A stretch of DNA of 43,278 nt from Candidatus Magasanikiibacteriota bacterium. Lineage in GTDB: Bacteria > Patescibacteriota > Patescibacteriia > Magasanikbacterales > GWA2-37-8. The stretch covers positions 1 through 43,278 of the forward strand of contig SICD01000005.1 in the NCBI GenBank assembly GCA_009694865.1. The letters run 5' to 3'. Made by a program: the position numbers and the translations under genes. Positions 27,145-43,278 of this stretch are shown one piece after another. Under the pieces are notes generated by a model, which was given only the letters and a program-made list of their open reading frames with translations, did no database searches and was not told the DNA's origin. The stretch's first letter is position 1; each line of letters begins with the position of its first letter.

Positions 27145-27222
27145 ATGATTTGACGAAATCATGTCGCGCAACGTCATTTGAGGCGCGACGTTAAAAAATT
27201 ATTAATAATCGGGACATGATTA

Positions 27223-27251
27223 ATTATAAACTGCTATGGGTCTTTTGTCAA
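27223..27251 (-). promoter_or_regulatory. consensus promoter for CARDB gene
   Basis: Minus strand TTGACA-N17-TATAAT. Confidence 0.88.
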
Positions 27252-27305
27252 AAAAATGAGAAGGCCAGGTCCGGTGGACCTGGCTGAAAAACCCTCCTTC
27301 TCATC
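27249..27305 (-). terminator. nested terminator after the GC-rich lipoprotein gene
   Basis: Minus strand GAGAAGGagggtttttcagCCAGGTCCaccGGACCTGGCCTTCTCATTTTTTT. Confidence 0.8.
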
Positions 27306-27310
27306 TTTTT

Positions 27311-27661
27311 CTACCCGCCCGGGGGTTTGCACTCCCCTCGGAAGTCGGCGGTGCACTGATGGTAATGGTCGCAGGCGCGACTGTACGTGACCAACGTTCC
27401 ACCGGGCGTGCACTCCGGCTCAAGACCCGGGCCGCAACAGTCGCGGTCGTCCCGGCACGGGCGACAGAGCTGCTCCTGGCCCAGGCACCCATTACTGGGG
27501 TCGTGGGGGTCAGTCGGCGTCCACCGGCCGCGACAGGCGGGATGAGCCATGTCCTGGGGCGCCGCCTGGAGATCCGCGTTCGGATCCACGTACGGGAGCG
27601 GGTCGTTGCTACCGTAGCACGCGACCAGAAACAGAACGACGGTGGTCAAAACGTTTTGCAT
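27311..27661 (-). CDS. small Cys-rich putative lipoprotein, GC-rich orphan gene
   Basis: MQNVLTTVVLFLVACYGSNDP lipobox-like; GGAGG RBS; about 11 Cys. Confidence 0.65.
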   Translation of the reverse strand: MQNVLTTVVLFLVACYGSNDPLPYVDPNADLQAAPQDMAHPACRGRWTPTDPHDPSNGCLGQEQLCRPCRDDRDCCGPGLEPECTPGGTLVTYSRACDHYHQCTADFRGECKPPGG

Positions 27662-28063
27662 CGGACACCTCCGAAAAAGTGAGTACCTGTTCGTCGGTAT
27701 GACGTTCATGGGTACGTAGCAAGAAACAGTTGCTATTTCCTATCACACACCCAAAAAAGATTAATTATCTTATCATACCATGAGGCAATTGTCAAACGTA
27801 TGAATAGTTAAAAAAATTTACCCCTAATCAAATTGTTTAAAAAATAAAAAATCTTTCCCCTGTGCATAACTTCGCATTCTGCTCTTTATCTTTTTTAGAA
27901 TACACTATATAATATACCTAGGTCGAAAAAAATTTTTTACAGGAATGCTTGTCATGTAAAAAATTCTTCTAAAAATTTTTTTCTCGCGTTCGCGAGGTAA
28001 GAAAAAAATTTATCTTTAGCCGCTCACTCGAGCGCGCTACACAAATGATAGGAGGTGTCTACT

Positions 28064-28132
28064 ATGGCAACGAAAAAGAAAGCCGCCAAGAAAGGCAAAA
28101 AGAAAGCCGCTTCAAAGAAAAAGAAACGTTAG
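28064..28132 (+). CDS. 22-aa lysine/alanine-rich basic peptide
   Basis: AGGAGG RBS then MATKKKAAKKGKKKAASKKKKR*, followed by a terminator; absent from the ORF track because of length. Confidence 0.75.
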   Translation: MATKKKAAKKGKKKAASKKKKR

Positions 28133-28139
28133 TCTTTTA

Positions 28140-28175
28140 AAAATCCCCCGAGTAATCGAGGGATTTTTTTTATTA
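28140..28175 (+). terminator. terminator after basic peptide
   Basis: aaatcccccgagtaatcgagggattttttttatt. Confidence 0.85.
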
Positions 28176-29576
28176 GAACAATCGTGGTTGTTTCGTCCCA
28201 GCAGGTTTACTCAAAGGAAATGGGTCAACCACGCCATATTGCCCATCAAACCCGGGCACAATTTTTACCTTACCTGCGCGCATATGCTGTATTCCCAAGG
28301 CAATATTTTTGTCATTCACAGCCTGTTCAATATCCTGTATATCCTTATATAATAAAATCTCAAATTCATTACCCAGCGCTGGCACCAGCCGCCGATACTC
28401 CACCTCAACCGCTTTGCTCTTTTTTCCAACCCCTAAACACGCGCTAATAATTTCCCGGAGCGGAACAATATATTTGTGGGGGATAAAATTTTCTTGAATG
28501 ATTTTATCTTCCGATCGATCCGATAGTTCATCCACGCGGTACAAAACTCCCACCGTGACTTTTTTCTTGCATACGGGACAAATTCCCTTATTTCGTTTCG
28601 TCTCGGCTGGCGTACAAGAAAATTTACAGTCCCGGTGTCCATCGTAATGGTACATCCCCTCCTCCGGATAAAATTCAATCGTGTATAAAAACTTTTTCTT
28701 ATCCCCGGTTTTTAAAATTCGCCGAATCTCATCATACGTAATATCTTTTTCATTCTCAAACGCAAACACATTAGCCTCGCGCCCCAAATTATCCAAACTG
28801 TGGGCGTCCGAATTTGAAACAAGCGTAATGTTGTCTAAATTCGTGAGACGGCGGTTCATGGGCGGGTCACTAGAGAGGCCGGTTTCAATCGCAAAAATTT
28901 CCGGCGTTAACTCTTCAAAACATTCCTCCAAAGAATCGTAACCAGACTTAGATCCAAACACCGCAAACCACGGCGTCCACGCGTGCGCCGGAATTACCAT
29001 CATGCGTGGGTCAATATCCAGGCACATCTTTACAATCTCTTTCCCCGTAATCCCAATAATTGGCCGGCCATCGGCATGCAAATTGGCTCCATAATCAAGC
29101 AACGCTTGATTAAACCGCTTCGCCACCGCCAAATTTGGAGCATAAATGAGTAGGTGCAAACGCCGCACTTTCTCCTTATGTTTGTAAATACAAGAAATCT
29201 CCGTCCCAACAATAAATCGCACCGGCGTCGACATTGTCATCCTGAGTCGGAGCGAAGAGCCTGTCCTGAGGCTCGCGCCGAAGGAATCTAGTTCATTCGA
29301 TTGGCCAACTAGATTCTTCGCTTCACTCAGAATGATATGTGACTGAGCCAGAGATCCCTCCTGCGGTCGGGATGACAGTTGGTACAAACCACTCTTCCCA
29401 ATCTCTTCCAAATTCTCTTCCAAGTGTTCCATCCACTTGGGATGCGTAAAATCCCCTGTCGACACAATCCCAACCCCCTTCTCCCCACACGCCTTGGCAA
29501 TTGCGGGCAACTCCAACAGCGGCGAGCACGCCCGCGCGTATTTGGAATGAATGTGGAGATCGGCGACCACCTCCAT
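28173..29576 (-). CDS. PHP-domain protein, endonuclease Q-like
   Basis: MEVVADLHIHSKYARACS, STGDFTHPKWMEHL, ISNSDAHS-like LVSNSDAHSLDNLGREANVF, zinc-binding CKFSC...CPVCKKKVTVGVLYRVDELSDR. Confidence 0.85.
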   Translation of the reverse strand: MEVVADLHIHSKYARACSPLLELPAIAKACGEKGVGIVSTGDFTHPKWMEHLEENLEEIGKSGLYQLSSRPQEGSLAQSHIILSEAKNLVGQSNELDSFGASLRTGSSLRLRMTMSTPVRFIVGTEISCIYKHKEKVRRLHLLIYAPNLAVAKRFNQALLDYGANLHADGRPIIGITGKEIVKMCLDIDPRMMVIPAHAWTPWFAVFGSKSGYDSLEECFEELTPEIFAIETGLSSDPPMNRRLTNLDNITLVSNSDAHSLDNLGREANVFAFENEKDITYDEIRRILKTGDKKKFLYTIEFYPEEGMYHYDGHRDCKFSCTPAETKRNKGICPVCKKKVTVGVLYRVDELSDRSEDKIIQENFIPHKYIVPLREIISACLGVGKKSKAVEVEYRRLVPALGNEFEILLYKDIQDIEQAVNDKNIALGIQHMRAGKVKIVPGFDGQYGVVDPFPLSKPAGTKQPRLF

Positions 29577-29577
29577 A

Positions 29578-30243
29578 TTAAATAAAAGAATTAAAGTCTT
29601 TAGGAATTGGTACCTCAACTATGACCAGTTCGCTTGTAGTGGCCGTTGCAAAAGCCAGCGACGTGGCCGCCAACGCTAACACCTGATTAGGCAACTGTTT
29701 TGAGGCTCCGTACTTCACATCCCCAACTATTGGGGATCCGATATACCCCAGCTGCGCCCTAATTTGGTGCGACCGCCCCGTACCGAGCTTAACTTTGAGC
29801 AAAGAATATTTTCCATTTGACTTAACCACTTCATAACTTAAATCTGCTCGCTGGCTTCCCGTAGTCTGTAGTCTGTGGACGGTAGTCCGATTCGTATTCT
29901 CATCCTTTGTTAAAAAATGCACCAAAGTTTCTTTCTCTTTTTTTAATTTTCCTTCCACTACGGCATGATAAATTTTTTCTACTGTGTGATTTCTAAACTG
30001 CTCTGAAAGTCGGCTCGCCCCCTTACTCGTCTTCGCAAAAAGAATGATTCCCTGCACATTCCTGTCGAGCCGATGCAATAACCCCAAAAAAACTTTCCCT
30101 GTTTTATGATACTTTTGTTTTAAATAATATTTCACCTCATCCATCAAAGTCGGGTCGCCCGTCACATCTCCCTGTACCAAAACGCCGGCCGGTTTATAGA
30201 CGGCAATGAGATGATTATCTTCGTAGAGCACTTGTAAGGGCAT
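29578..30243 (-). CDS. RluA-family pseudouridine synthase
   Basis: VLYEDNHLIAVYKPAGVLVQGD, LGLLHRLDRNVQGIILFAKTSKGASRLSEQF, GRSHQIRAQLGYIGSPIVGDVKYGA. Confidence 0.93.
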   Translation of the reverse strand: MPLQVLYEDNHLIAVYKPAGVLVQGDVTGDPTLMDEVKYYLKQKYHKTGKVFLGLLHRLDRNVQGIILFAKTSKGASRLSEQFRNHTVEKIYHAVVEGKLKKEKETLVHFLTKDENTNRTTVHRLQTTGSQRADLSYEVVKSNGKYSLLKVKLGTGRSHQIRAQLGYIGSPIVGDVKYGASKQLPNQVLALAATSLAFATATTSELVIVEVPIPKDFNSFI

Positions 30244-30295
30244 GGGATTATATGCGAATGCGCTGAGACGCCACGAATTTTGCCAATCAACACTA

Positions 30296-30682
30296 TTAAT
30301 TAGTTACTCTCCAAATTTGCAGAGGCCGTACTCTAAAATTAACTAATAAACCCAAACGTAAATTCAATGCTTCTAAATAACGCAGTAGCTGAATTTTGTG
30401 ATCTTTAGTGAGTCTGTCCGTGGCTTTAAACTCAATAACTATTTTATTATCGACAACTAAATCGGCACGAAAATCTCCTATGACCACGCCATCTATTACT
30501 ACATGTAACGACGCTTCAGCAACATACGAGATGCTTTTGCTTTTCAAGAATGCGCAAACAGCTTTCACATAATGTTTTTCCTGGAACTTAGTTCCTAACT
30601 TATTTTGAACATCAAACAAGACACCATTAAGTTGATAGGATAGTTCTTGGTAAATAATTCCTCCCATATTCTCTATTCGCAT
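30296..30682 (-). CDS. GxxExxY protein
   Basis: IIYQELSYQLNGVLFDVQNKLGTKFQEKHYVKAVCAFLKSKSISYVAE...IVIEFKATDRLTKDHKIQLLRYLEALNLRLGLLVNF. Confidence 0.9.
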   Translation of the reverse strand: MRIENMGGIIYQELSYQLNGVLFDVQNKLGTKFQEKHYVKAVCAFLKSKSISYVAEASLHVVIDGVVIGDFRADLVVDNKIVIEFKATDRLTKDHKIQLLRYLEALNLRLGLLVNFRVRPLQIWRVTN

Positions 30683-30711
30683 TATTCGTGGGCCCTCAAG
30701 GCCATTCGCAT

Positions 30712-31707
30712 TTATTCCTTACTCCACCGCGCAAAAATTCCCGCTGGCAACAATCGCTCACTACCTTTCTCTGCGATCGTCAGCTCCCCAATTTCGATTT
30801 CTCCTTTGTACTCTTTCATTAAATCCGCTAAATTATTTTTATAGGAAATTGCTGAATACCCCGATGCATACCCATTGATAAGAAAAAATAACGGCTGGTC
30901 GCTTAAAACCTGTTTACAGACATCGAGCAACTCCAAAAAATGATCTTCCACTTTCCACAATTCCCCCTTCGCTCCATGCCCAAAAGCTGGTGGATCCATA
31001 ATAATACCATCATATTTATTTCCTCGTTTCACTTCCCGTTTCACATACGCCCGTGCGTCATCAAGTATCCAACGAATGGGTTTATTTTCCAAACCCGACA
31101 ACATGGCGTTATCCCGTGCCCACCCAATCGCCACTTTCGATCCGTCCACGTGGACTACCTCCGCCCCCGCTTTCGCGGCAGCAAGAGAGGCCCCTCCCGT
31201 GTAACCAAACAAATTTAGAACGCGGACGAGTCCTCCTCCCGCCTCCTCCCCTGCGGTGGAGGAGGTTGCGTTTCCCCTCCCCTTCGCAAAGGGGAGGTCG
31301 GGGAGAGGTCTCGCTTTGTTTTCTTGTTTTCTTGTTTTCTTGATTTTCTCCCCAATCCACTCCCAATTCCCCACCTGTTCCGGAAACACCCCCGTATGCT
31401 TAAACGCCGACAATTTAATCCAAAGCTTAAAACCAGCAAGATCAACGGGCCACCGCTCCGGTAATTTCTTTCGCGTCTGCCATGTCGCCGTAGGGACAGG
31501 TCTAGACCTGTCCCCACCGTTTTCTGAACGAAAATACGCATCCGCCTTCTGCCACTCACTCTCTGATAACCGCTTTTTCCACAACGCCTGCGGATCCGGC
31601 CGTGCGACCGTCACCTCGCCATACCGCTCCAATTTTTCCCCGTCGCCACTATCGAGCAGGGCATAATCATTGCCTGGTTTAGTTTTTAAAATGGAGTATT
31701 CATGCAT
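30712..31707 (-). CDS. class I SAM-dependent rRNA methyltransferase (RlmI/RlmK-like)
   Basis: VLNLFGYTGGASLAAAKAGAEVVHVDGSKVAIGWARDNAMLSG, DGIIMDPPAFGHG. Confidence 0.88.
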   Translation of the reverse strand: MHEYSILKTKPGNDYALLDSGDGEKLERYGEVTVARPDPQALWKKRLSESEWQKADAYFRSENGGDRSRPVPTATWQTRKKLPERWPVDLAGFKLWIKLSAFKHTGVFPEQVGNWEWIGEKIKKTRKQENKARPLPDLPFAKGRGNATSSTAGEEAGGGLVRVLNLFGYTGGASLAAAKAGAEVVHVDGSKVAIGWARDNAMLSGLENKPIRWILDDARAYVKREVKRGNKYDGIIMDPPAFGHGAKGELWKVEDHFLELLDVCKQVLSDQPLFFLINGYASGYSAISYKNNLADLMKEYKGEIEIGELTIAEKGSERLLPAGIFARWSKE

Positions 31708-31774
31708 AGATATTGCTGTAAAGTTAGCCTTATGTTAGAATCAAGTATACTAAATAATACGCTCTTGGGCAACT

Positions 31775-32200
31775 ATGAAAGATATAATACTATTTCCAGA
31801 CGAAACTATTGTCGCAACAAAACTTTTTGATGTCCACCAAGACTGGGAAGTCCCAATCTCAGGATTTTTTATAATTGCTGCTGTGCGTAAAATAAAATCT
31901 ATATCCGAATTTACCGACGAAGAAACATCTGAGTTCATCAATCTCATTCGTGCAATTCGGGCTGGGATGAGAGACGTGCTTGCTATACAGGAAGTGTACT
32001 TATTCCAAAACGAAGACACCGAGCACGGTTTTCATCTGTGGATGTTACCGCGCCACGCATGGATGGAAAAATTTGGCAAAAAAATCCAATCAGTACGGCC
32101 CATCATAAATTATGCCAAAGAAAATATGCTCGGTGATGATGTTTTTACGGAAGTTAGAGACTGTGTAAAAAAAATGAGGGTATATATGTCAAATTTTTAA
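31775..32200 (+). CDS. HIT-superfamily-like protein
   Basis: EDTEHGFHLWMLPRHAWMEKFGK (HxHxxxxPRH-like). Confidence 0.6.
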   Translation: MKDIILFPDETIVATKLFDVHQDWEVPISGFFIIAAVRKIKSISEFTDEETSEFINLIRAIRAGMRDVLAIQEVYLFQNEDTEHGFHLWMLPRHAWMEKFGKKIQSVRPIINYAKENMLGDDVFTEVRDCVKKMRVYMSNF

Positions 32201-32208
32201 AATGACAA

Positions 32209-32943
32209 CTAAATTTCTCCCCCCTCATATTCAATCTCACTCTCATCGAGTCTCCGTATCCCCTCTCCACTCATCATCTCTTCATACGTATGCGCGATAA
32301 GCCCTGGTACGCGACCAAGAATAAAAAAACCCGTCGCGATGCGCCAATCAAAACCCATATCGGATAAAATCGCCGCGTTGGCACCATCCATATTGAGCGG
32401 CAAAGGTTTGGAAGAAATTTTATTTAAAGCTTCACCAACTGTCACCGCGAAAGAACAATGTTTACCATACAACCCCGTTTCTTTGGCAACAGTAAACAAC
32501 GTGTCCGTCCGATTGTCATGGCTGAGCACGCGATGTCCATATCCCGGGATACGGACTTTTTTTTCTTTTAAACTTTTTAAGAGGAATTCAAGATCACTCA
32601 CACCAACATTGGTCTGAAAAAACTTCGCCGCGCCTTCCAGCGCTCCACCATGCTTATTTCCGCCAAGCGCCAAAATGCCAGCCGCGACCGACACGTGCAA
32701 ATCATTCCCAACTGACGCCACCATCCGCGGCACCATCGCCGACGCCACCCCGACACCATGGTCAATCATGGCCGTTAACATGGCATTCAACATTTTAGTT
32801 TCCTTGACAGTCGGCAATTTCCCACGCCAAATCAAAAATACCGTTTCCACAAAACTTTTATTTTCCACGAGCTCGTGGAGATTGTAGCCACGGATAATTT
32901 CTTGTCCATCGTTAACGTTACTAATTGCGGTTTTCCATTGCAT
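32209..32943 (-). CDS. short citrate synthase / citryl-CoA lyase-like protein
   Basis: GGNKHGGALEGA, RIPGYGHRVLSHDNRTDTLF, LPLNMDGANAAILSDMGFDW; 244 aa only. Confidence 0.8.
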   Translation of the reverse strand: MQWKTAISNVNDGQEIIRGYNLHELVENKSFVETVFLIWRGKLPTVKETKMLNAMLTAMIDHGVGVASAMVPRMVASVGNDLHVSVAAGILALGGNKHGGALEGAAKFFQTNVGVSDLEFLLKSLKEKKVRIPGYGHRVLSHDNRTDTLFTVAKETGLYGKHCSFAVTVGEALNKISSKPLPLNMDGANAAILSDMGFDWRIATGFFILGRVPGLIAHTYEEMMSGEGIRRLDESEIEYEGGEI

Positions 32944-33016
32944 AATGGTCGAAAGATTAGAAGATTAAAAGACTAGAAGATTATCGAACAATATCGGACA
33001 ATAATCTTGCAATCTT

Positions 33017-33976
33017 TTAGTCTTTAAATCTTTGTCGCCCTCGCCGAAATCTTCTCTTTACCATCCAATACAACAAAAATAATCCAACAAAAATAATAGC
33101 AATCCGAATGGGGTTATTATTATCCGAAATAAATAACCAGGCCGGTTGCGCCCTTTCCGCGTAGGGGGCTGCTTTGTCCGCGTAGCTCTGAACGGTCGCG
33201 TAATAGGTCTTCACCCGCACCAACGCCGTTTGGGTGCCACTATACACTCGCCCTACCGTGCCGGCAGTTGAGGAAACCGCATCCACCACCTTGCCGGCTC
33301 CCTCAAGCGCTTCCCGATTTTTATTAAACGCGTCCAGCAAACTATTGCTATGAACAGTACTACTAATCTGCGCGAATAAGTTTTTCGTCGCCGCGGTTAC
33401 TTCTTTAACGCCTAAAACCACTCCGTCCGCCGCTCCCGTTGGCGCCGGTGCCCCCACAAAAATCTGACCACCTTGTCTTTCCACTTCAACCATCAGCGCC
33501 TGACCGATATTTAAGGCTTTCCCCTGGCCGGTAATGTCTTGTAACGGAACAACAAAACCAGTATTCTTGTCCGTTACCATAAGCGACGCGCCCACTGCCC
33601 CACCAATGCCACCCGTATCCAACCCAATGCGAGTGCCTTGTTCATCAATAGTTGTAACTGAAACAAACCGCGCCGACAAGGAGTGCGCGCCCGGGGTAGG
33701 TTGCCAAAATACTCGAAGTTGCTGGGCACTCTCGCGAGGCAAACGTTTAATTTGCGCTTTATCAATCAACTCATTATTGTCATAAAAACCAACCTCGCCT
33801 TCCAGCGCGTAATAATCATTATTAACCACTACTGTATACACGCGAGCTAATTCACCATCGGCCAACGACGTCCGCGCCAACCAAATTCCACTCGCCGGCA
33901 CAAAACCAACACCGGCGGCGGAAACGGCGAGAGGAAAAAATAATAATATCACTAAACCAATTATAATTTTTCGCAT
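33017..33976 (-). CDS. secreted/membrane-anchored protein with signal peptide and C-terminal TM
   Basis: MRKIIIGLVILLFFPLAVSAAGVGF ... IRIAIIFVGLFLLYWMVKRRFRR. Confidence 0.7.
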   Translation of the reverse strand: MRKIIIGLVILLFFPLAVSAAGVGFVPASGIWLARTSLADGELARVYTVVVNNDYYALEGEVGFYDNNELIDKAQIKRLPRESAQQLRVFWQPTPGAHSLSARFVSVTTIDEQGTRIGLDTGGIGGAVGASLMVTDKNTGFVVPLQDITGQGKALNIGQALMVEVERQGGQIFVGAPAPTGAADGVVLGVKEVTAATKNLFAQISSTVHSNSLLDAFNKNREALEGAGKVVDAVSSTAGTVGRVYSGTQTALVRVKTYYATVQSYADKAAPYAERAQPAWLFISDNNNPIRIAIIFVGLFLLYWMVKRRFRRGRQRFKD

Positions 33977-34143
33977 ACACAAATCAATTGTCATCCCGAC
34001 CACAGGAGGTCGTAGATCCTCCAAGGAGGAGATCTCTGGCTCACAAACGATCGGCGGACAGAGATTCCTCTATGAGGGATCGCGAGACCTCGTCGGCTGC
34101 CAAGCCTCGCTCGGAATGACAAACGTCTTAAAACTTAAACATT

Positions 34144-35115
34144 TCAAGCATGCAGCTTAACTAACTCTACCAAATCCTCATACCTCTCCGCAATCATAAC
34201 TCCAACTTCCTTAAGCGCCGCCTCTTTTTCCGCCGCCCCCTGTCCCCGCGCCACAATGGCTCCCGCATGCCCAATGTTCATGCCTTCGGGGAGCATCTGC
34301 GCGAATTTACCACCAATATAAATCGCAAGCGGCTTAGTAAATTCTTTATTTTTAATTAATTCCACAATTTCAAATTCATAACTCCCGCCATGCTCGCCAA
34401 AAATTATTACCGCTTTCGTTTGTTCATCTTTTTCATACAATTTGAGCACATCGGCATATGTCGTTCCCATCAAGAGGTCTCCCCCCACGTGCACGGCCGC
34501 GCTTTGGCCTAAGCCATTTTTGGATAATTGCCACGAAAGCTCATTTGTCATACCACCAGAACGAGAGATAACCCCAATACTACCCGGTTTAAAAATATCG
34601 TTGACTAATGGTCCGCCGATCACACCAATCCGCCCCACGCCCGGATTAATCGCACCAAGCGAACTCGGACCCAAAATGCGAATATTTTTTTCTTTCGCCG
34701 CCGCCAAACAGTACGCCGTGTCTTTAATGGGGATACGTTCCACAAACACGTTAATGAGTGCAATATCGTTTTCAATCGCTTCTAAAATTGCGGCCTTGGC
34801 GGCAAATGGTGGCACATAAATCACCGAAACGACATCGCTCAACTTGTCATTCTGAGCGGAGGCTCGCGCCGGAGTCGAAGAATCCATTTCACCAAACGTC
34901 AAGGGATCCTTCGCTTCGCTCAGGATGACAGCCATCGCCTCCTTCACCGTATCAAACACCGGCTTTCCTTCCACTTCCTGCCCACCTTTTTTGGGCGTCA
35001 CACCACAGAGGACATTGGTGCCATAATCAAGCATGGCTTTGGCACCTTTTTGGCCTTCCTTGCCCGTGATGCCTTGGACCAGGACTTTGGTGTTTTTAGA
35101 AATGAGGATGGACAT
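34144..35115 (-). CDS. succinyl-CoA synthetase alpha-like / citryl-CoA synthetase small-subunit-like
   Basis: VLVQGITGKEGQKGAKAMLDYGTNVLCGVTPKKGGQ, GVISRSGGMTNELSWQLSKNGLGQSAAVHVGGD, NIGHAGAIVARGQGAAEKEAALKEVGV. Confidence 0.88.
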   Translation of the reverse strand: MSILISKNTKVLVQGITGKEGQKGAKAMLDYGTNVLCGVTPKKGGQEVEGKPVFDTVKEAMAVILSEAKDPLTFGEMDSSTPARASAQNDKLSDVVSVIYVPPFAAKAAILEAIENDIALINVFVERIPIKDTAYCLAAAKEKNIRILGPSSLGAINPGVGRIGVIGGPLVNDIFKPGSIGVISRSGGMTNELSWQLSKNGLGQSAAVHVGGDLLMGTTYADVLKLYEKDEQTKAVIIFGEHGGSYEFEIVELIKNKEFTKPLAIYIGGKFAQMLPEGMNIGHAGAIVARGQGAAEKEAALKEVGVMIAERYEDLVELVKLHA

Positions 35116-35123
35116 AATGGATG

Positions 35124-35525
35124 CGTCATTGCGAGCGACCGGAGGGAGCGTCGCAATCCCCTTATTTTACCAGGGAGTTAATTCGTTAAATAAATCTCTC
35201 AACTCAGGATTAAATTTGTGTATCAACTCATCTTTCTTTTTTCTAGAATAATTTTTTATCTGCTTCTCGCGCGCAATCGCATCGTCCGGATGGCTGTATT
35301 CTTCGTAGTAAACTAATTTATTAACATTATATTTTTTTGTAAAATATCCGCCATTACCTTCCTTGTGGTCTAACACCCGTTTATGTAGCCCACTCGTTAC
35401 ACCAACATATAATACGGCATTACTGTGATTGGCCATCAGATAAGCATAATAACGTTCTTCCTGCATACGGAGTTTCTAAGCAAGGGGATTACGACGTCGC
35501 TCGTTCCTCGCTCCTCGTAATGACG
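35124..35525. mobile_element. palindromic element with GIY-YIG ORF in the loop
   Basis: Left arm 35124-35163 cgtcattgcgag..gcgtcgcaatcccctt; right arm 35482-35525 aaggggattacgacgtcgctc..cgtaatgacg; inverted. Confidence 0.72.
35167..35466 (-). CDS. GIY-YIG nuclease family protein
   Basis: YYAYLMANHSNAVLYVGVTSGLHKRVLDHKEG...KLVYYEEYSHPDDAIAREKQIKNYSRKKKDELI. Confidence 0.93.
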   Translation of the reverse strand: MQEERYYAYLMANHSNAVLYVGVTSGLHKRVLDHKEGNGGYFTKKYNVNKLVYYEEYSHPDDAIAREKQIKNYSRKKKDELIHKFNPELRDLFNELTPW

Positions 35526-36718
35526 CTACTATCGCGAATCATCTCCGCCAGCACCTGCGCCGTCTCGCTCATTCCCGTTTCTTTTTTAAACATTTTGATA
35601 TTCAAATTATTCCGTTTAACACATTCTTCCAAAAGCGCAAAACCCTCCGCGCTCTCCGTTCCATCGCGCCGAACAACAATTGGATAGGCCGGCTTAATCT
35701 CATCTAGCGCGTCTACAATACCCATAAACGTTTCTTTGATATTGGTAAAGTTAGCCACCACTCCGCACATCCAGAGTCCCTTGAGTCCAGGCTTGGAGAG
35801 AACAACCTTGGCGAGTTGGTACACTTTTTCGCGCGGCGGATTGCCGGAATACTCGGTATAGTTTGAAGGCTTAAGACCAGCGCCGGCTAAAGCGTCCATG
35901 TTGGCAATCGACGCTCCCCCACCGTTCAAAATCATGGCAATATCACCATCAAGCTCAATATATTTTCCAGCCGTACCACGGTAATACGCTTCTCCCTCAT
36001 CAATTTTTTTCGCCGCAATCTCTCGGTCGGTCGGCAGTCGCCCCATCATGGTACGTGGTTCCAATTCTTTCCATTCCTCGTGACGATAGAACGCATCATC
36101 GTCAATCGCCACTTTCGCGTCCGCCGCCACCCAGCGACCATCAGTGGTTTTAACGAGGGGGTTAATTTCTACAACACGAGTGTCTTCTGCAAGGAAACAA
36201 GACCACAGTTTATTTTTAATGTCATCCTGAGGCACAGCCGAAGGATCTAGTTGGCCACCTAGATTCTTCGCTTCGCTCAGAATGACAGATTGACGCACGT
36301 CTAAAAATTTCTTTTCTATCTGCTCCTCCGCCACATCCTCAATGTCCATGCCCCCTTCCGAAGAATAAATAATCACCGGTTGTTTTTTGTTGGTATCGTA
36401 CGTTATCGAGAAATAATGCTCCTCGGCAATATTCAATTTTTCTTCAATTAAAAGCGCGGACACATACTGCCCGCGAATTTGCATGTCAAACAATTCCGCG
36501 CAGGCCATTACCACTTCCTGAATGGACGAACAAAATTTAATCCCATTATTTTTTCCGCGCTTGCCGCTTAACACCTGCGCCTTAACCACCACATCCGTCA
36601 CGCCGAGGCTGTTGTACGCATCCATAAAATTATCACCACGCTTAACCACCGCGCCTTTAGGAGTGGCAATGCCATGCTTAGCAAATAATTTTTTTCCTTC
36701 AAATTCGTAGAGATTCAT
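35489..36718 (-). CDS. ATP-grasp succinyl-CoA synthetase beta-like / citryl-CoA synthetase large-subunit-like
   Basis: MNLYEFEGKKLFAKHGIATPKGAVV, VEINPLVKT, EYSGNPPREKVYQLAKVVLSKPGLKGLWMCGVVANFTNIKETFMGIVDAL resembles ATP-citrate lyase. Confidence 0.85.
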   Translation of the reverse strand: MNLYEFEGKKLFAKHGIATPKGAVVKRGDNFMDAYNSLGVTDVVVKAQVLSGKRGKNNGIKFCSSIQEVVMACAELFDMQIRGQYVSALLIEEKLNIAEEHYFSITYDTNKKQPVIIYSSEGGMDIEDVAEEQIEKKFLDVRQSVILSEAKNLGGQLDPSAVPQDDIKNKLWSCFLAEDTRVVEINPLVKTTDGRWVAADAKVAIDDDAFYRHEEWKELEPRTMMGRLPTDREIAAKKIDEGEAYYRGTAGKYIELDGDIAMILNGGGASIANMDALAGAGLKPSNYTEYSGNPPREKVYQLAKVVLSKPGLKGLWMCGVVANFTNIKETFMGIVDALDEIKPAYPIVVRRDGTESAEGFALLEECVKRNNLNIKMFKKETGMSETAQVLAEMIRDSSVITRSEERATS

Positions 36719-37044
36719 AAATCCATTCTAAACTCTTTACCATAATCCTTAAACCCTAAACTCTCGTACCACGCATGCACCTTTGGGCGGCTATAGCGGC
36801 TGGTGCCAATAAGCTTATAACACTCTCGCGCTTTCGCCTCGGCAATCACCGACTCAACCAACTTGGTACCTAGCCCTTTTCCTCGTTGACTTTCTTCCAC
36901 CAGCACATCAAATAAGCCGTATGGTTTGGCATGAGCGTCGTCAAAAATAAGATACAGATACGCTCGGCCTACTTCGCGACCATTGTCTTCCATCGCGATT
37001 CTGACAGCATACGTATCGCGCTTCTCTTCTTTTTTAATTTCCAT
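36715..37044 (-). CDS. GNAT-family N-acetyltransferase
   Basis: LFDVLVEESQRGKGLGTKLVESVIAEAKARECYKLIGTSRYSRPKVHAWYESLGF. Confidence 0.9.
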   Translation of the reverse strand: MEIKKEEKRDTYAVRIAMEDNGREVGRAYLYLIFDDAHAKPYGLFDVLVEESQRGKGLGTKLVESVIAEAKARECYKLIGTSRYSRPKVHAWYESLGFKDYGKEFRMDL

Positions 37045-37095
37045 AACAATGTAACAATATAGCAATTGAACAATTGATCGCGCGAGATTCCTCGA

Positions 37096-38070
37096 CTACG
37101 CTACGCTTCGCTCGGAATGACAATCTAAGATGTCTCCTAAAATTTTACTTAATTTCTCCGGACTCAACCCCCCCTCGTCTTTCTCAAAATCGGCACCAAC
37201 AATTTGTTGATTTTTTATATTCTCAATATTTTTTGCAAACGCCCCCCATTTTCTCTCCTCAAATCGCTGTCTCTGCCGTGGAGTGAGCTCTAGATCGTGA
37301 TAAATAACGGTATCAATTGGCCGGGGCAAATAACTTTCTAGCTCGCTCACAAAATCACTCAAGCGCTCCGGCCCGGTTTCACCGTTCTGCTCATAGGCAT
37401 CGCCCGCTACGTAGATTAATTTCGCTTTTGAGGCATCAATCGCTTCTTTTACGCCACCGGGGAGAAGTGTGGCGATAACGCTGGTATACAAACTGCCCGG
37501 GCTCAAAAAAATATAATCGGCTTCTTGAATTACATTCTGGGCTTCGGAATATATTTTAACCTCCGGCTCCAACCACACGCGCTTAATTTTAAGCGTTCGA
37601 TCGTAGGTTGGGTCATCCAACGCCGCTTCGGTCTTAACAATCATACCATTTCGCAATTCAGCGCACAAATCACTCGGCTCTAAAGTTATCGGATAAGCAT
37701 GCCCAACCGCCGACACCGCCTCCTCCAGTGCCCGCACCCCGCTCATAAAATCTTTGGCGTAATTACTGCCGAGTGTCAAAAATAAATTACCCAAATTATG
37801 CCCGGTCAATTTGCCGTCTCCGGTAAAACGAGTTCGATAAAAAATATTTCGCAACCAATGATAATCATATGGCGAGAGCGCCAAAACCGCGCGCAAAATG
37901 TCGCCCGGCGGCAAACCACCAAACTCCTGTCGTAATCTCCCCGATGAACCACCCGAATCACTCATGGATATGACGGCGGCTACTTCCAATTGACCAACAA
38001 ATTTTTTTAACGCGTTAATCACAATCGCGCTTCCATTCCCCCCGCCGATAACAACTACTTTAGTCTTCAT
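37096..38070 (-). CDS. YvcK/CofD-family gluconeogenesis factor-like protein
   Basis: KVVVIGGGNGSAIVINALKKF, SMSDSGGSSGRLRQEFGGLPPGDILRAVLALS, LTGHNLGNLFLTLGS. Confidence 0.9.
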   Translation of the reverse strand: MKTKVVVIGGGNGSAIVINALKKFVGQLEVAAVISMSDSGGSSGRLRQEFGGLPPGDILRAVLALSPYDYHWLRNIFYRTRFTGDGKLTGHNLGNLFLTLGSNYAKDFMSGVRALEEAVSAVGHAYPITLEPSDLCAELRNGMIVKTEAALDDPTYDRTLKIKRVWLEPEVKIYSEAQNVIQEADYIFLSPGSLYTSVIATLLPGGVKEAIDASKAKLIYVAGDAYEQNGETGPERLSDFVSELESYLPRPIDTVIYHDLELTPRQRQRFEERKWGAFAKNIENIKNQQIVGADFEKDEGGLSPEKLSKILGDILDCHSERSVA

Positions 38071-38136
38071 AAAAATTCAATATGCGTGGATCAAAATACA
38101 AGTTGTATATTTTTCCATGTATTTTGTATATTGTTT

Positions 38137-38793
38137 TCAACTTATACCTAAAAAATCAAATAATTTTTTGTCGAGCAGAGACTCAATAATTAAATTCGCT
38201 TTAGAAAAATCTCCATGACTCCACCTAGGATCCGGTACTGCGACGCATCGCATGCCCGCCGCCTGCGCGCTCACGAGCCCATTGACTGAATCCTCAATAA
38301 CCACACATTCGGCCGGCGGAATCTGGAGCACTTCGGCAGTATGCCTATAAATTGCTGGATCTGGTTTGCCAACAAAATTAACATGATCGGTAGAGACAAG
38401 CGCGTCAAAATACTTTCCCCATTCGAAACGATTAACAATCGTATTAATACGCTCAAGCGTGGAACCAGACGCAATCGCGAGTTTCACGCCGCTCTGTTTA
38501 ATTCTTGGGAATAATTCACTCGCCCCTGGCATAGGACCGGCTTGATAGGTGTAAATAGGTTCCGTAGCCACCAAACGCCCTTGCAAAATCTCTTCCACGG
38601 AATCGACTAAACCAAAATGTTGTTTTAAAAACAACGCGTTCTCACGAAAACTTTGACCCGTCATTCGCGCTGTTAATTCGCGCGATAATTTAATTTTATA
38701 TTTATCCAAAAAACCCATCTCGGCTTTGGCCCAGTAAAACTCACTATCAATAATCACTCCGTCCATGTCAAAAATAACAGCTTGAAATTTCAT
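38137..38793 (-). CDS. HAD-superfamily hydrolase (beta-phosphoglucomutase-like)
   Basis: AVIFDMDGVIIDSE, KLAIASGSTLERI, FVGKPDPAIY, CVVIEDSVNGLVSAQAAGM. Confidence 0.93.
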   Translation of the reverse strand: MKFQAVIFDMDGVIIDSEFYWAKAEMGFLDKYKIKLSRELTARMTGQSFRENALFLKQHFGLVDSVEEILQGRLVATEPIYTYQAGPMPGASELFPRIKQSGVKLAIASGSTLERINTIVNRFEWGKYFDALVSTDHVNFVGKPDPAIYRHTAEVLQIPPAECVVIEDSVNGLVSAQAAGMRCVAVPDPRWSHGDFSKANLIIESLLDKKLFDFLGIS

Positions 38794-38819
38794 ACCTATT
38801 AGTTAGTGCCTTAACAATT

Positions 38820-38930
38820 GTCATTTCGAACGAAGCCGTAGCGCAGAGAGAAATCTCTGGCTTACCCAACATTACGACGATTGAGACAGAGATTCCTCGT
38901 CGGCTGCGAAGCCTCGCTCGGAATGACAGT
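38820..38930. repeat. REP-like palindromic repeat
   Basis: gtcatttcgaacgaagccg...agaaatctctgg...cagagattcctcgtcggctgcgaagcctcgctcggaatgac. Confidence 0.8.
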
Positions 38931-38947
38931 AGCCAAACGGGAATTTA

Positions 38948-40801
38948 TTATTCAACCGTCACGCTCTTCGCCAAATTCCTCGGCCGATCAACATCTTTGC
39001 CTAACGCCACCGCCATATGATACGCAAACAACTGTAGTGGAATCGTGTTAACCAGTGGCTCCAACAATTCCATAGTTGGTGGAACATAAATCACATCATC
39101 GGCCAGTTCTTTTGCTTGCTCATCGCCTTCGGTCGCGATCAAAATTACCGGAGCCTTGCGCGCGCGTATCTCTTCGATGTTGCTCCTCATTTTATCATAT
39201 AATTGGTTTTTCGTCAGGATGGCGACCACTGGAAAATCCGGCGACAGAAGCGCAATTGGCCCGTGCTTCATTTCGCCACCCGGGTAGGCTTCGCTATGGA
39301 TATAGGTAATCTCTTTGAGTTTGAGTGAGCCCTCCAGCGCTACCGGAAAATTAACACCGCGGCCAAGAAAAAGAAAATTTTTATACTGCTTATACTTCTC
39401 AACTATTTTTTTAACTTCACTTTCAATCTTAAGAGATTGTTCCATTTTTACCGAAATCTCCCGAAACGCTTTTACCAGGCGCTCACCAGTAGCTACCGTT
39501 ACACGACGCAAACGTCCAAACTGGAGAGCATACATGACGAGAACCGCAATCATATTAGTATACGCTTTAGTAGACGCGACTGCCAACTCCGGACCGGCGT
39601 GGATGTACGTGCCGCCATCAGTCTCGCGCGCAATGGTGGAACCAATCACATTCACAACTCCACGGACGAACGCGCCTTTACGTTTCGCTTCGCGCAAAGC
39701 CGCAATCGTATCAGCCGTTTCACCGGATTGCGAAATACCAAACACCAAAGTGTTTTTGTCGAGGATCGGGTCGCTATAGCGAAACTCGCTAGCCACTTCC
39801 ACTTCGGTAGGGATGCCAGCCAAACGTTCAAACGCGTACTTGCCAACCATCGCGGCGTACGAAGCAGTGCCACACGCAATTAAAATAACCCGGTTTATGC
39901 TACGCATATCAACGTCAGTCATGTTGAGCCCACCCAGGTGCGCCGTGCCTTCATCTTCCACCAACCGTCCACGCAAAGCATCTTTAATCACGGTGGGCTG
40001 ATCAAAAATTTCTTTTAACATAAAGTTAGCAAACCCGCCTTTTTCAGCTTCAGCTTCACTCCAGTCAATATGCTCGGTATGTTTATCAATCTTTTTATCC
40101 TGCAAATTAAAAATCTGCACGCCCGTATCGGTAATCTCCACCATCTCTTCATCATCTAAAAAAATCACCTGCTGAGTGTGTGCCAGCATCGGCGACGTGT
40201 CCGACGCGATAAAATATTCTTTGTCCCCTACCCCTACTACCAGCGGGCTCCCGAGCCTGGCCGCAATTAACGTCCTTGGATGCTTGGCGTGCATCACGAC
40301 CAGCCCATACGTGCCACGGACATAACTTAAGGCGCTCTGCACGGCCGCGCGAAGGGCACCTTGCTTGTCCGCCGAAGCTTCCGCGAAGGCGGAATATTGT
40401 GTTTCAATTAAATGCGCCAAAATTTCTGTATCGGTTTGCGAACGAAGCGTATGGCCTTTTAAAAATTTATCTTTCAGCTCGCGATAATTTTCCACAATCC
40501 CATTATGCACCACAATAATGTCGCCGCTACAATCGGTATGCGGGTGTGCGTTTTCCTCCGTAACTCCGCCATGCGTGGCCCAGCGAGTGTGGGCGATACC
40601 AAACGTACCCTGGATATTCTCATTCTGTAACTTGGCAGCCAAGTTATCAATCTTTCCAACTGCTCTAACACTCTTAAATGTACCGTTATGCGCAATCGCC
40701 ACACCGGCCGAATCATACCCCCGGTATTCAAGACGGCGCAGACCCTTGAGTAAAATCGGCAGCGCTTCTTTATGCCCAATATAACCTACAATTCCACACA
40801 T
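38948..40801 (-). CDS. glmS: glutamine-fructose-6-phosphate aminotransferase
   Basis: MCGIVGYIGHKEALPILLKGLRRLEYRGYDSAGVAI; SIS domains; C-term RPRNLAKSVTVE. Confidence 0.97.
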   Translation of the reverse strand: MCGIVGYIGHKEALPILLKGLRRLEYRGYDSAGVAIAHNGTFKSVRAVGKIDNLAAKLQNENIQGTFGIAHTRWATHGGVTEENAHPHTDCSGDIIVVHNGIVENYRELKDKFLKGHTLRSQTDTEILAHLIETQYSAFAEASADKQGALRAAVQSALSYVRGTYGLVVMHAKHPRTLIAARLGSPLVVGVGDKEYFIASDTSPMLAHTQQVIFLDDEEMVEITDTGVQIFNLQDKKIDKHTEHIDWSEAEAEKGGFANFMLKEIFDQPTVIKDALRGRLVEDEGTAHLGGLNMTDVDMRSINRVILIACGTASYAAMVGKYAFERLAGIPTEVEVASEFRYSDPILDKNTLVFGISQSGETADTIAALREAKRKGAFVRGVVNVIGSTIARETDGGTYIHAGPELAVASTKAYTNMIAVLVMYALQFGRLRRVTVATGERLVKAFREISVKMEQSLKIESEVKKIVEKYKQYKNFLFLGRGVNFPVALEGSLKLKEITYIHSEAYPGGEMKHGPIALLSPDFPVVAILTKNQLYDKMRSNIEEIRARKAPVILIATEGDEQAKELADDVIYVPPTMELLEPLVNTIPLQLFAYHMAVALGKDVDRPRNLAKSVTVE

Positions 40802-40844
40802 ATACTAAACAAATATTATTTTATTAAACAGAAATTAAAAAATA

Positions 40845-41240
40845 TTATCCCTCTTTCTGTTTTGATTGATACGTAGTTTTGATAAACAAATTAAGTTGAA
40901 AATGGATTAAGTCGGCGTGCTTTAGCAATTGATTGAACTGCTCTACAGTTATACGGCCCCGTTTATAGAGCAGGCAACACCAATGCTTGACCTCAAAAAG
41001 TGAACCACGAGAATTATAATAAAATTTGATTCGATCCAAGTAATGAAACCTACCATAACCTTCGGCAATATTTGCGCCGACTGAATCAACTGCTCTTATA
41101 AATTGGTCTCCAAAAATCTTTTTATCGTGCCAATCCAATCGTTCATATATTTGCCAGCCAACTTCACATAACTCTAAAGAAATTTTATAAACAAATACAT
41201 CACCTAATTTTGTATACCCTTCCATAAAATATTTGTTCAA
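40845..41240 (-). CDS. four-helix bundle protein (S23/23S rRNA IVS protein family)
   Basis: YKISLELCEVGWQIYERLDWHDKKIFGDQFIRAVDSVGANIAEGYGRFHYLDRIKFYYNSRGSLFEVKHWC. Confidence 0.92.
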   Translation of the reverse strand: MNKYFMEGYTKLGDVFVYKISLELCEVGWQIYERLDWHDKKIFGDQFIRAVDSVGANIAEGYGRFHYLDRIKFYYNSRGSLFEVKHWCCLLYKRGRITVEQFNQLLKHADLIHFQLNLFIKTTYQSKQKEG

Positions 41241-41331
41241 TATTCTTCAATATCCATTTAATATTTGTTCCGGTAAAGGGAAGAGGGCGGCCGGCGCGTG
41301 TGCGTCGTCGCCCCTTTCCGTGGTTCGCCAG

Positions 41332-41489
41332 TCAGTCAACAACGGGACAGCCGTCCTCGGCCAGGCGCGAAAGCGCCACCTCGTCGATCGGCGGCGGCGG
41401 TTCCTCGCGCGGTGGCGTCTCGTCGAGAAGAGCGAGGGGGTTGCCATCGATGATCTTCTGATCCTGGCCTGCGCTACACTGAGTGCTCA
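41332..41489 (-). CDS. small hypothetical protein, GC-rich orphan gene
   Basis: AGGAGGA RBS then MSTQCSAGQDQKIIDGNPLALLDETPPREEPPPPIDEVALSRLAEDGCPVVD*, TGA stop. Confidence 0.6.
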
Positions 41490-41587
41490 TGGGATCTCCT
41501 CCTGCAAGCGGTCCACGGTTCTGGGGCACAATTCTCGCACTTACGAAAATTTTGCCACCACCTAAAAAATTAAACTTAATTAATTTT

Positions 41588-42343
41588 TCAAACGGTTAGT
41601 TTTTCAGCCATTGCCAACCCCTCTTTGGTATTTATCCCAATCGCCTCTTTCGGGTCAATCGCGACGCTGGAAATTTTTTTACCACTCGAAACCGCCATCC
41701 CAATCAAATCGGTTAAATAATATTCTCCTTGGCTATTTTCATTTTTTAATTTTTTTAAATTCTCCCACAGCCATCCAGATTCAAACACGTAGTAGCAGGG
41801 GTTCAATTCACTGGACATCGCCTCCTCGGGGATCGCATCTTTTAATTCTACTGATTTAATAATCCCACCGCTCGCATCACGCACAATCCTCCCAAAATCT
41901 TTTAGAGACGATCGCCATTCATTAAAATCCAGCACGGTGATAGTTGCAAGCGTTATGGTAGCCTGGGTTGCAGTGTGTTCACCAATCAATTTATTAATGG
42001 ATTTAGTAGTAATAAATGGCATGTCACCGTATAAAACTACTATGTGCCCTTCATCCTTAAGGCCAGCTTCGGTTTGAGCTACTGCGTGACCCGTACCAAG
42101 TTGTTTTTCCTGGACAACATAATTCGCTCGTTCGCCCAAATAATTCTGGACTAAATTGTCCCGCCTGCTCACTACCACAACTGGCTTAATTCCAGCCTGT
42201 TCAACTGCACCAACAACATAATCAACTAGCGGCCTATTCTTTAGCTCGTTCATCACTTTAGGCAAAGCACTCTGCATCCGCTTACCCTCCCCGGCCGCCA
42301 AAATAACTACGGCAACGTTATCGATGGGAACTGATGTGGTCAT
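41588..42343 (-). CDS. GlmU-like sugar nucleotidyltransferase (N-terminal domain only)
   Basis: VAVVILAAGEGKRMQSALPKVMNEL, QLGTGHAVAQTEAGL, VVLYGDMPFI. Confidence 0.9.
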   Translation of the reverse strand: MTTSVPIDNVAVVILAAGEGKRMQSALPKVMNELKNRPLVDYVVGAVEQAGIKPVVVVSRRDNLVQNYLGERANYVVQEKQLGTGHAVAQTEAGLKDEGHIVVLYGDMPFITTKSINKLIGEHTATQATITLATITVLDFNEWRSSLKDFGRIVRDASGGIIKSVELKDAIPEEAMSSELNPCYYVFESGWLWENLKKLKNENSQGEYYLTDLIGMAVSSGKKISSVAIDPKEAIGINTKEGLAMAEKLTV

Positions 42344-42959
42344 AAATTTCGGTAAGGGTGTTAAAGTATGGGAGGCCGGTCGCCTGATATTCCGCTTCCG
42401 GAAATGATGAGGATTTTTTCATCACGATTTTTATCTCTGGAAATTGTTTCGCTAGCGCGACCGTCTCCGGGACTTTATCATTAATAAACCAAATTTCTTT
42501 ATCCGACACATTTTTCAACAATTCTTCCATCACCGTATGTTTCTCCTCATCCACCATAAATACTCTGTCAAAATATTTCTCAATTTCGAGCGCGCGGACT
42601 TTTTTAAACTGATACTCCGCATCCCCAAGACTAAGCAAAATCATTGGCTCGCCAAAGGATTTAAGTTTTTCTAAAAACGTAATCGCATCGGGAAATAAAA
42701 ATTCTTTTAACCGCTCTGGGGCCATGGTACTGGCCAACGCGGCAAATGCTTTATCTTCATCAAAACCTTTCATTGCCAAAACCTGCGCGTGACGTTGGTC
42801 GTCATACCACACCTGGCCACTCGCGCTATTGCGCGCCTCCCGGTACGTTTGCAAATACAGGTCCTCCGAAATACCTAGTGGCGCCAGTGCCGCCACGCGA
42901 GCGTTGCTAAATCCGGGGCGGGTATTAAACAGCGTATCATCAAAATCAATAATAAACAT
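42318..42959 (-). CDS. HAD-family hydrolase
   Basis: MFIIDFDDTLFNT, PMILLSLGDAEYQFKKVRALEIEKYFDRVFMVDEEKHTVMEELL, WFINDKVPE. Confidence 0.85.
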   Translation of the reverse strand: MFIIDFDDTLFNTRPGFSNARVAALAPLGISEDLYLQTYREARNSASGQVWYDDQRHAQVLAMKGFDEDKAFAALASTMAPERLKEFLFPDAITFLEKLKSFGEPMILLSLGDAEYQFKKVRALEIEKYFDRVFMVDEEKHTVMEELLKNVSDKEIWFINDKVPETVALAKQFPEIKIVMKKSSSFPEAEYQATGLPYFNTLTEIYDHISSHR

Positions 42960-42971
42960 ACTCGCCAGGTC

Positions 42972-43069
42972 GCTAATATCTTTTTAATATCTGTTTAATA
43001 TTCTTTTAATATTATTGATAATCAACGAGAATATTGAAAAGATATTAAACAAATATTGAGAAAATATTT
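42972..43069. repeat. AT-rich palindromic element, ORF-less
   Basis: TTAATATCTgTTTAATATTCTTTTAATATTattgataatcaacgagAATATTgAAAAGATATTAAACAAATATT. Confidence 0.7.
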
Positions 43070-43278
43070 TTACAGTTTATCCCAAAGATTATCAAAAATA
43101 ATTTTCTGCGTTTCGCACACCCCTTCGTTTTCAATCACCACTCCCACTAAATCTTTTTTTGCGTTGAGTGAGATGTAGGCCGTCTTCCCTGGATAAATAA
43201 TAATGTCGGTGGGCGTTTTGCTTTCGGCTTTAAGCCACTTGCGTTCATCCAGCCCGCGCAGTTCCCCGCCTTCACCAA
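43070..43278 (-). CDS. partial ORF, possible TrmB-like regulator C-terminus
   Basis: GEGGELRGLDERKWLKAESKTPTDIIIYPGKTAYISLNAKKDLVGVVIENEGVCETQKIIFDNLWDKL*; runs off window. Confidence 0.55.
   Translation of the reverse strand, partial: GEGGELRGLDERKWLKAESKTPTDIIIYPGKTAYISLNAKKDLVGVVIENEGVCETQKIIFDNLWDKL

Follow-up and report, generated by a model that had tools for sequence, protein, structure and literature searches.

S23 genes enclosed by inverted arrays of short units: a possible mobile unit in a Patescibacteria genome and in many other phyla

Introduction

The stretch of DNA studied here (the window, 43,278 nt) is contig C25 of a 0.99-Mb genome of the Patescibacteria lineage (G000; Candidatus Magasanikiibacteriota bacterium). 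It carries an S23 element, in which a gene for a small four-helix-bundle protein of the S23 family lies between the two arms of an inverted repeat. Structures of S23 proteins have been solved since 2006-2007; to our knowledge, no function is known for them. The explanation we favour, at a probability of about 0.5, is that the S23 element of the window is one representative of a widespread mobile unit, whose S23 protein binds its own arm array and whose arms pair and mark the ends of the unit.

S23 genes have been described in intervening sequences (IVSs) of 23S rRNA in Coxiella and Leptospira, which are removed by RNase III (PMC4990558). In the same source, a relative from Xanthomonas is described as a homopentameric toroid (PMC4990558).

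The S23 element of the window

The initial annotation described the S23 gene as flanked by the arms of an AT-rich palindrome. The flanking is borne out. The outermost arm ends are AACAAATATTA from 40808 and, as reverse complement, TAATATTTGTT finishing at 41269; inwards, the left arm extends with AACAAATATTATTTTATTAAACAGAAATTAAAAAATATT and the right one, again read as reverse complement, with AACAAATATTAAATGGATATTGAAGAATATTGAACAAATATT. The alignment of one arm with the other scores 16, above all of the shuffles (200/200). The chance probability is p=0.0038 with 64-nt flanks (20,000 dinucleotide shuffles, both flanks) and p=0.0014 with 101-nt flanks (5,000 shuffles).

The encoded protein has 126 aa from the ATG, or 131 aa if an upstream TTG at 41240 is used. 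It matches PF05635 with 79.5 bits (cut-off 33.8) and TIGR02436 with 81.2 bits (cut-off 24). The AlphaFold monomer model has four helices and a mean pLDDT of 93. Its structural matches span a TMq range of 0.73-0.84, with 2gsc (TMq 0.83) and 2rld as the best ones, followed by Avd (4dwl) and the ribonucleoprotein of a diversity-generating retroelement (DGR; 8ub7) at TMq 0.73-0.78.

Occurrence of the arms around S23 genes

In the arm test, the left flank was aligned to the inverted right flank and scored against dinucleotide shuffles. All seven S23 genes of this genome (7/7) have arms that beat all 200 shuffles. The test was extended to 113 S23 loci, of which 80 came from genome records of many phyla, including an ANME-1 archaeon, and 33 from the taxonomic family; arms at p<=0.005 were present in 87. 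An independent set of 28 loci, picked on domain score alone, gave 21 at p<=0.005 and 26 at p<=0.05. As a control, pseudo-ORFs (open reading frames) shifted along the same loci reached p<=0.005 in 5 of 433 cases. Hence the arms exceed an AT-rich background, and chance AT similarity as their source is ruled out by the shuffles and the shifted controls. The AT-richness noted for the palindrome proved incidental: the units differ between copies, in step with the lineage of the protein.

S23 genes are carried by 203 of the 379 sampled genomes of the phylum and by 17 of 25 in the taxonomic family, and the copy number in this phylum reaches about a dozen in a 1-Mb genome. The units are mostly located in spacers separating co-directional genes; in 79 of 97 loci, S23 is co-directional with the genes on either side, these being called by longest open frame and not from annotation. 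The intergenic position of the window copy had been set against the established S23 genes within rRNA IVSs. The position was read correctly, but it is not exceptional, as none of the 20 S23 loci checked (0/20) overlaps rRNA. Likewise, Rfam at gathering threshold has no match in the window from 26000 to 43278, so that no rRNA gene lies at the S23 element.

The spacer between frdA/sdhA and frdB/sdhB, called from neighbour sequence, contains S23 elements with differing arms in several Bacteroidota (L161, L164, L166, L173 and L179), which could reflect either old residence or repeated insertion.

A search of plasmids and phages for S23 found one plasmid match and none in phages. Two Avd genes located beside DGR reverse transcriptases, which the S23 profile also picked up, showed no arms in the test. 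In 353 kb of this genome, an unbiased scan returned 112 inverted repeats versus 4 in shuffled sequence, and 68 versus 0 at score 20. Strong inverted repeats with loops of 300-500 nt and arms of tandem units contain S23 or GxxExxY genes.

Arm anatomy and conservation

The arms are built of short tandem units. A period of 7 nt fits best in 58 of 91 5' arms and 62 of 91 3' arms, and one of 8 nt in 24 and 21 of them, respectively. The spacings of chained units follow the same pattern, with 7 nt (409) ahead of 8 (132), 9 (45) and 6 (21). With its units of 10-11 nt, the window copy is exceptional. Four units per arm are commonest (72 of 180 arms), then five (35), versus mostly one or two in shuffled flanks. 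Unit motifs vary by copy and include GAAT, GTAT, GTAG/TTAG, GTTG, AGTT and C-containing types. In 90 of 91 elements, the two arms agree better with each other than with the mean of the five elements with the most similar arms. A unit-order test gave a mean rank of 0.22 (0.5 being neutral) but is biased, because the arm limits were taken from the alignment itself; the cross-element comparison is the better evidence.

Arm identity was compared in four syntenic orthologous pairs and amounts to 81-97%. Three of these pairs have 74-85% identity in the S23 protein and 42-49% at third codon positions. The fourth pair, with third codon positions at 0.94, is too close to inform; over all pairs the protein ranges from 0.74 to 0.97. 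Since arms and protein are conserved while third codon positions diverge, both appear to be under selection.

The unit motif follows the protein lineage

The motif of the arm units follows the lineage of the S23 protein, also across phyla. The tree of 90 S23 proteins used here rests on few columns and its forks are weak. On it, the motif class, assigned for 62 rows, changes 18 times, compared to a mean of 37.7 and a minimum of 31 for shuffled labels (500 trials). Arm polarity, i.e., a G-rich or a C-rich 5' arm, changes 7 times (shuffled mean 12.3, minimum 9). A Mantel test of arm against protein distance gave rho 0.14 (p=0.0025), with -0.04 for the flank composition control. When pairs from different phyla only were considered and arms were permuted within phylum, p was 0.027. 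One clade with GTAG/TTAG arms unites records of an ANME-1 archaeon, Omnitrophota, Planctomycetota, Thermodesulfovibrionia and Anaerolineae.

Sites with and without the element

The S23 gene and its arms are gained or lost together. At the window site, the congener G001 aligns up to 40803 and resumes at 41271, with unrelated small palindromes in between. The site of L031 (G020) is represented in G022 by a spacer of about two dozen bases, and that of L036 (G024) in G023 by a spacer of 53 nt, both with no arms and no clear palindrome. In G021, the S23 unit of the L031 site is absent and a solo palindrome of the TGTCATTGCGA type is found instead. No clear target duplication was seen at the sites read, where the genomes compared are just 70-91% identical. 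The empty sites and solo copies that the initial annotation proposed to look for were both found.

In homologous spacers (window 42960-43075 and 40803-41271; L075 in G021), congeners carry different palindromes, as if these spacers were repeatedly occupied.

Solo palindromes and other elements of the window

The window contains a solo palindrome, which was thought to resemble the right arm of the S23 element. The likeness stands: the S23 right arm matches the left arm of the solo directly. However, a direct match to the left arm means that the polarity of the solo is reversed relative to the S23 element. The solo is therefore not the same element, and its origin as the window S23 element minus its gene is ruled out. 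It has a score of 25 (p=0.0002) and forms a strong hairpin (RNA fold z=-5.45). A second AATATY solo (L072:5405-5502), also with 11-nt units, shows the same reversal relative to the window S23 element; such reversed solos could, for instance, stem from an arm-to-arm junction. At the site of the window solo, G001 has a different solo, which resembles GxxExxY arms. Solos of other types agree in polarity with gene-bearing copies. Those of the CAAATGTC type share their arm type with the S23 copy L007, the AACGGATT solo at L065:10891 has that of the GxxExxY copy at L065:13681, outer ATAGAACAC included, and the GCGAATG..CACGAAT solo at L054:11283 has that of the window GxxExxY element.

Two further small genes of the window lie in a palindrome loop (Table 1), and the layout was said to be common to the three protein families. 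This is the case for S23, for GxxExxY and for part of the small GIY-YIG genes. GxxExxY genes have arms in 3 of 3 copies in this genome, which beat all 200 shuffles, and in all 12 from the taxonomic family (p<=0.01), whereas 8 of the 13 small GIY-YIG genes of this genome have arms above all shuffles and several of the remaining ones are located at tRNA genes. The arm sequence is not shared: S23 and GxxExxY have tandem units of different motifs (for GxxExxY, e.g., ACAGATTT, ACGGATT and TACGAAA), and GIY-YIG genes have REP-like TGTCATCCTGAGCG palindromes or are placed at tRNA genes. In the window, the GxxExxY arms score 21, above all shuffles; the GIY-YIG arms score 18 and are of the TCATTGCGAG type, unrelated to the S23 arms. 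In G001, the GIY-YIG element is missing from its site and the GxxExxY site holds other sequence with no GxxExxY gene.

By eye, the GIY-YIG genes L013, L015, L019, L021 and L023 (contigs C30, C38, C50, C31 and C55) adjoin apparent tRNA genes, several with a partial tRNA copy on the opposite side, as if they were homing into tRNA genes. At L058:3840-4360, a YidD-like gene is flanked by inverted TGTCATCCTGAGCG repeats, probably by coincidence. At L059:3887-4332, inverted arms of 51-52 nt, unlike the others, enclose a 343-nt loop with a 118-aa ORF of unknown family.

The neighbours of the window S23 element are glmS (38948-40801, minus strand) and a GlmU-like nucleotidyltransferase gene (41588-42343, minus strand). 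Consequently, there is no reverse transcriptase beside the S23 gene that would indicate a DGR, and the single RVT_1 match of this genome covers part of the domain and lies on a different contig. A GC-rich, hairpin-like stretch at 41276-41330 (GGGCGGCCGGCGC..GCGTCGTCGCCC) adjoins the element and is conserved in G001.

Table 1. Coordinates of the features described in the window
Feature	Position	Strand	Evidence or remark
Whole S23 element (arm, S23 gene, arm)	40808..41269	-	Missing as one block in congener G001
S23 / four-helix-bundle ORF	40845..41225	-	PF05635, TIGR02436, AlphaFold model
5' arm, gene sense: AACAAATATT AAATGGATATT GAAGAATATT GAACAAATATT	41226..41269	-	10-11-nt units
3' arm, gene sense: inverted, more degenerate partner	40808..40846	-	Overlaps the stop codon
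Solo palindrome: arms of 39 nt each (AATATY units, 11 nt) around a 16-nt loop	42975..43068	.	Inverted-repeat scan, fold
GxxExxY (PD-(D/E)XK) element: arms 30245-30296 and 30666-30718, ORF 30296-30682	30245..30718	-	PF13366, 103.6 bits
GIY-YIG element: arms 35123-35163 and 35482-35526 (TCATTGCGAG type), ORF 35167-35466	35123..35526	-	PF01541, 53 bits

Discussion

How could such a unit work? In the explanation we favour, an S23 homopentamer would bind the unit array as single-stranded RNA or DNA, with about one unit per subunit. The arms would pair, and the resulting hairpin would allow the unit to be tolerated within an operon, where it would probably be cut by RNase III, as in the S23-coding IVS of 23S rRNA. 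During movement, the paired arms would mark the unit ends, and movement itself may proceed through host functions. One may guess that the mobile form is a strand with bound arms and that host repair or replication is employed. The S23 unit may be an operon-dwelling relative of the rRNA IVS. A broader claim, to which we give somewhat less than even odds, is that these units form a new class of mobile elements in many bacterial phyla and at least one archaeon, with S23 rings that read single-stranded arrays of 7-8-nt units and co-evolve with them, the unit residing in operons as a hairpin which the protein recognises. If so, GxxExxY nucleases would be a parallel element of the same design.

Several observations weigh against this explanation. 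The pentamer had led us to expect exactly five units, and with a modal count of four, one unit per subunit is not established. The RNA fold of the whole window element is a modest gain over shuffles (z=-1.48). Arm changes between orthologues are frequently uncompensated, and in three of the four pairs conservation is somewhat lower in the 3' arm than in the 5' arm, so strict pairing is not demanded. Element-free sites show that the unit has been gained or lost, but they record neither a transfer nor its direction, and in G021 and G001 other palindromes fill the S23 site. The plasmid copy (L270; NC_019690.1, a Pseudanabaena conjugative plasmid) is a counterexample, since it has no arms by the same test. 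Moreover, the 80-locus sample was drawn using a single S23 lineage as query, and the motif classes were set after the arms had been inspected.

Other explanations account for part of the data. The palindromes could be prior host repeats of the REP-like kind, into whose loops S23, GxxExxY and GIY-YIG genes insert, the solos being empty targets. The solos that share an arm type with gene-bearing copies (AACGGATT, CAAATGTC, GCGAATG..CACGAAT) fit this idea, as do the small GIY-YIG genes at tRNA genes, which are stem-loops themselves. We nonetheless regard it as unlikely: the S23 sites in G022 and G023 have neither arms nor a clear palindrome, in three S23 cases the gene-less relatives are also without arms, and the window solo has the wrong polarity for a target of the window S23 element. 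Furthermore, a host repeat would not track the S23 protein from phylum to phylum, as the arm motif does. Alternatively, the arms could be terminal inverted repeats for a transposase acting in trans, with S23 as a passenger and the solos as deletion products resembling miniature inverted-repeat transposable elements (MITEs). Both arms are indeed present or absent with the unit and solos are abundant, as the 353-kb scan indicates. However, S23 arms within one genome differ, with cross-pair scores not above background, unlike the ends served by one transposase, and there is no clear target duplication at the sites read. The Y1 (IS200/REP-type) transposase was found in neither G000 nor G001, other transposase families not having been searched; an identity with RAYT/IS200 is rejected on this ground, and the transposon-like scheme as a whole appears improbable.

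A regulatory role, in which S23 controls its own expression and that of the host operon by way of the arms as conserved mRNA elements, and in which mobility is rare and incidental, would explain the long stay at single operon sites with strongly conserved arms (frdA-frdB, etf and por spacers). It is also in line with the heptamer repeats of Beggiatoaceae just upstream of start codons, which were proposed as sites of a post-transcriptional regulator (PMC4679880). The patchy presence in phylum and family, the element-free sites in congeners and the many unrelated host operons speak against it, and we regard it as about as improbable as the transposon-like scheme. Finally, S23 might, in the manner of Avd, be the partner of a reverse transcriptase that acts in trans, the hairpin-bounded transcript being copied and retro-inserted. 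Three points favour this: the match of the S23 model to Avd and to the DGR ribonucleoprotein, the help that an inverted repeat gives to DGR retrohoming (PMC12875486), and the presence of RVT_1 genes in 16 of the 25 genomes from the taxonomic family. Against this stand four S23-bearing genomes without an RVT_1 match (G001, G015, G017 and G019), on which a dependence on reverse transcriptase is rejected, the one partial match in this genome with its seven S23 genes, and the armless DGR-linked Avd genes. We consider this scheme very improbable.

Among known systems, Avd of diversity-generating retroelements (4dwl, 8ub7) resembles S23 in the predicted fold and in being a likely pentamer, but the window S23 has no adjoining reverse transcriptase and the two Avd copies examined have no arms. 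TRAP reads GAG/UAG repeats much as the S23 ring would read its own arm units. REP/RAYT and IS200/IS605 are palindrome-bounded elements, and the likeness lies in a small gene near palindromes and in solo palindromes; here, in contrast, no Y1 transposase was found and the arms are tandem-unit arrays that vary by copy. Unlike classical insertion sequences and MITEs, the S23 copies of this genome share no terminal repeats above background. Cyanobacterial STRR repeats are heptamer direct repeats. The S23-coding rRNA IVSs have complementary ends around an ORF and a patchy, mobile-looking distribution (PMC4990558), whereas the S23 units lie in spacers of protein genes and their arms are short tandem-unit arrays that track the protein. 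Sets of TAACTGA heptamers were described in Beggiatoaceae, Cyanobacteria and Bacteroidetes (PMC4679880). They are degenerate 7-nt intergenic tandem units as well, often before a start codon and lacking in some relatives; that paper reports a single inverted set, as opposed to the paired arrays enclosing S23, and makes no mention of S23 or intervening sequences.

The S23 protein family, the rRNA IVS and the heptamer repeats were thus already known. A literature search for a link between S23 and repeats found none; its coverage was incomplete, which makes it weak evidence of novelty. Neither the regular association of S23 genes with inverted heptad arms nor the link between motif and protein was found in the papers searched, and both appear to be new.

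If each S23 gene is accompanied by the arrays that its product binds, genome sequences give the binding site of hundreds of copies, which makes the function of the protein testable. The heptamer repeats of Bacteroidetes and Cyanobacteria would then be S23 arms or their remnants, which would provide a source for the spread left unexplained in PMC4679880. The findings also suggest that operon-dwelling elements of this kind are much commoner than the rRNA IVS, which would be one special case among them.
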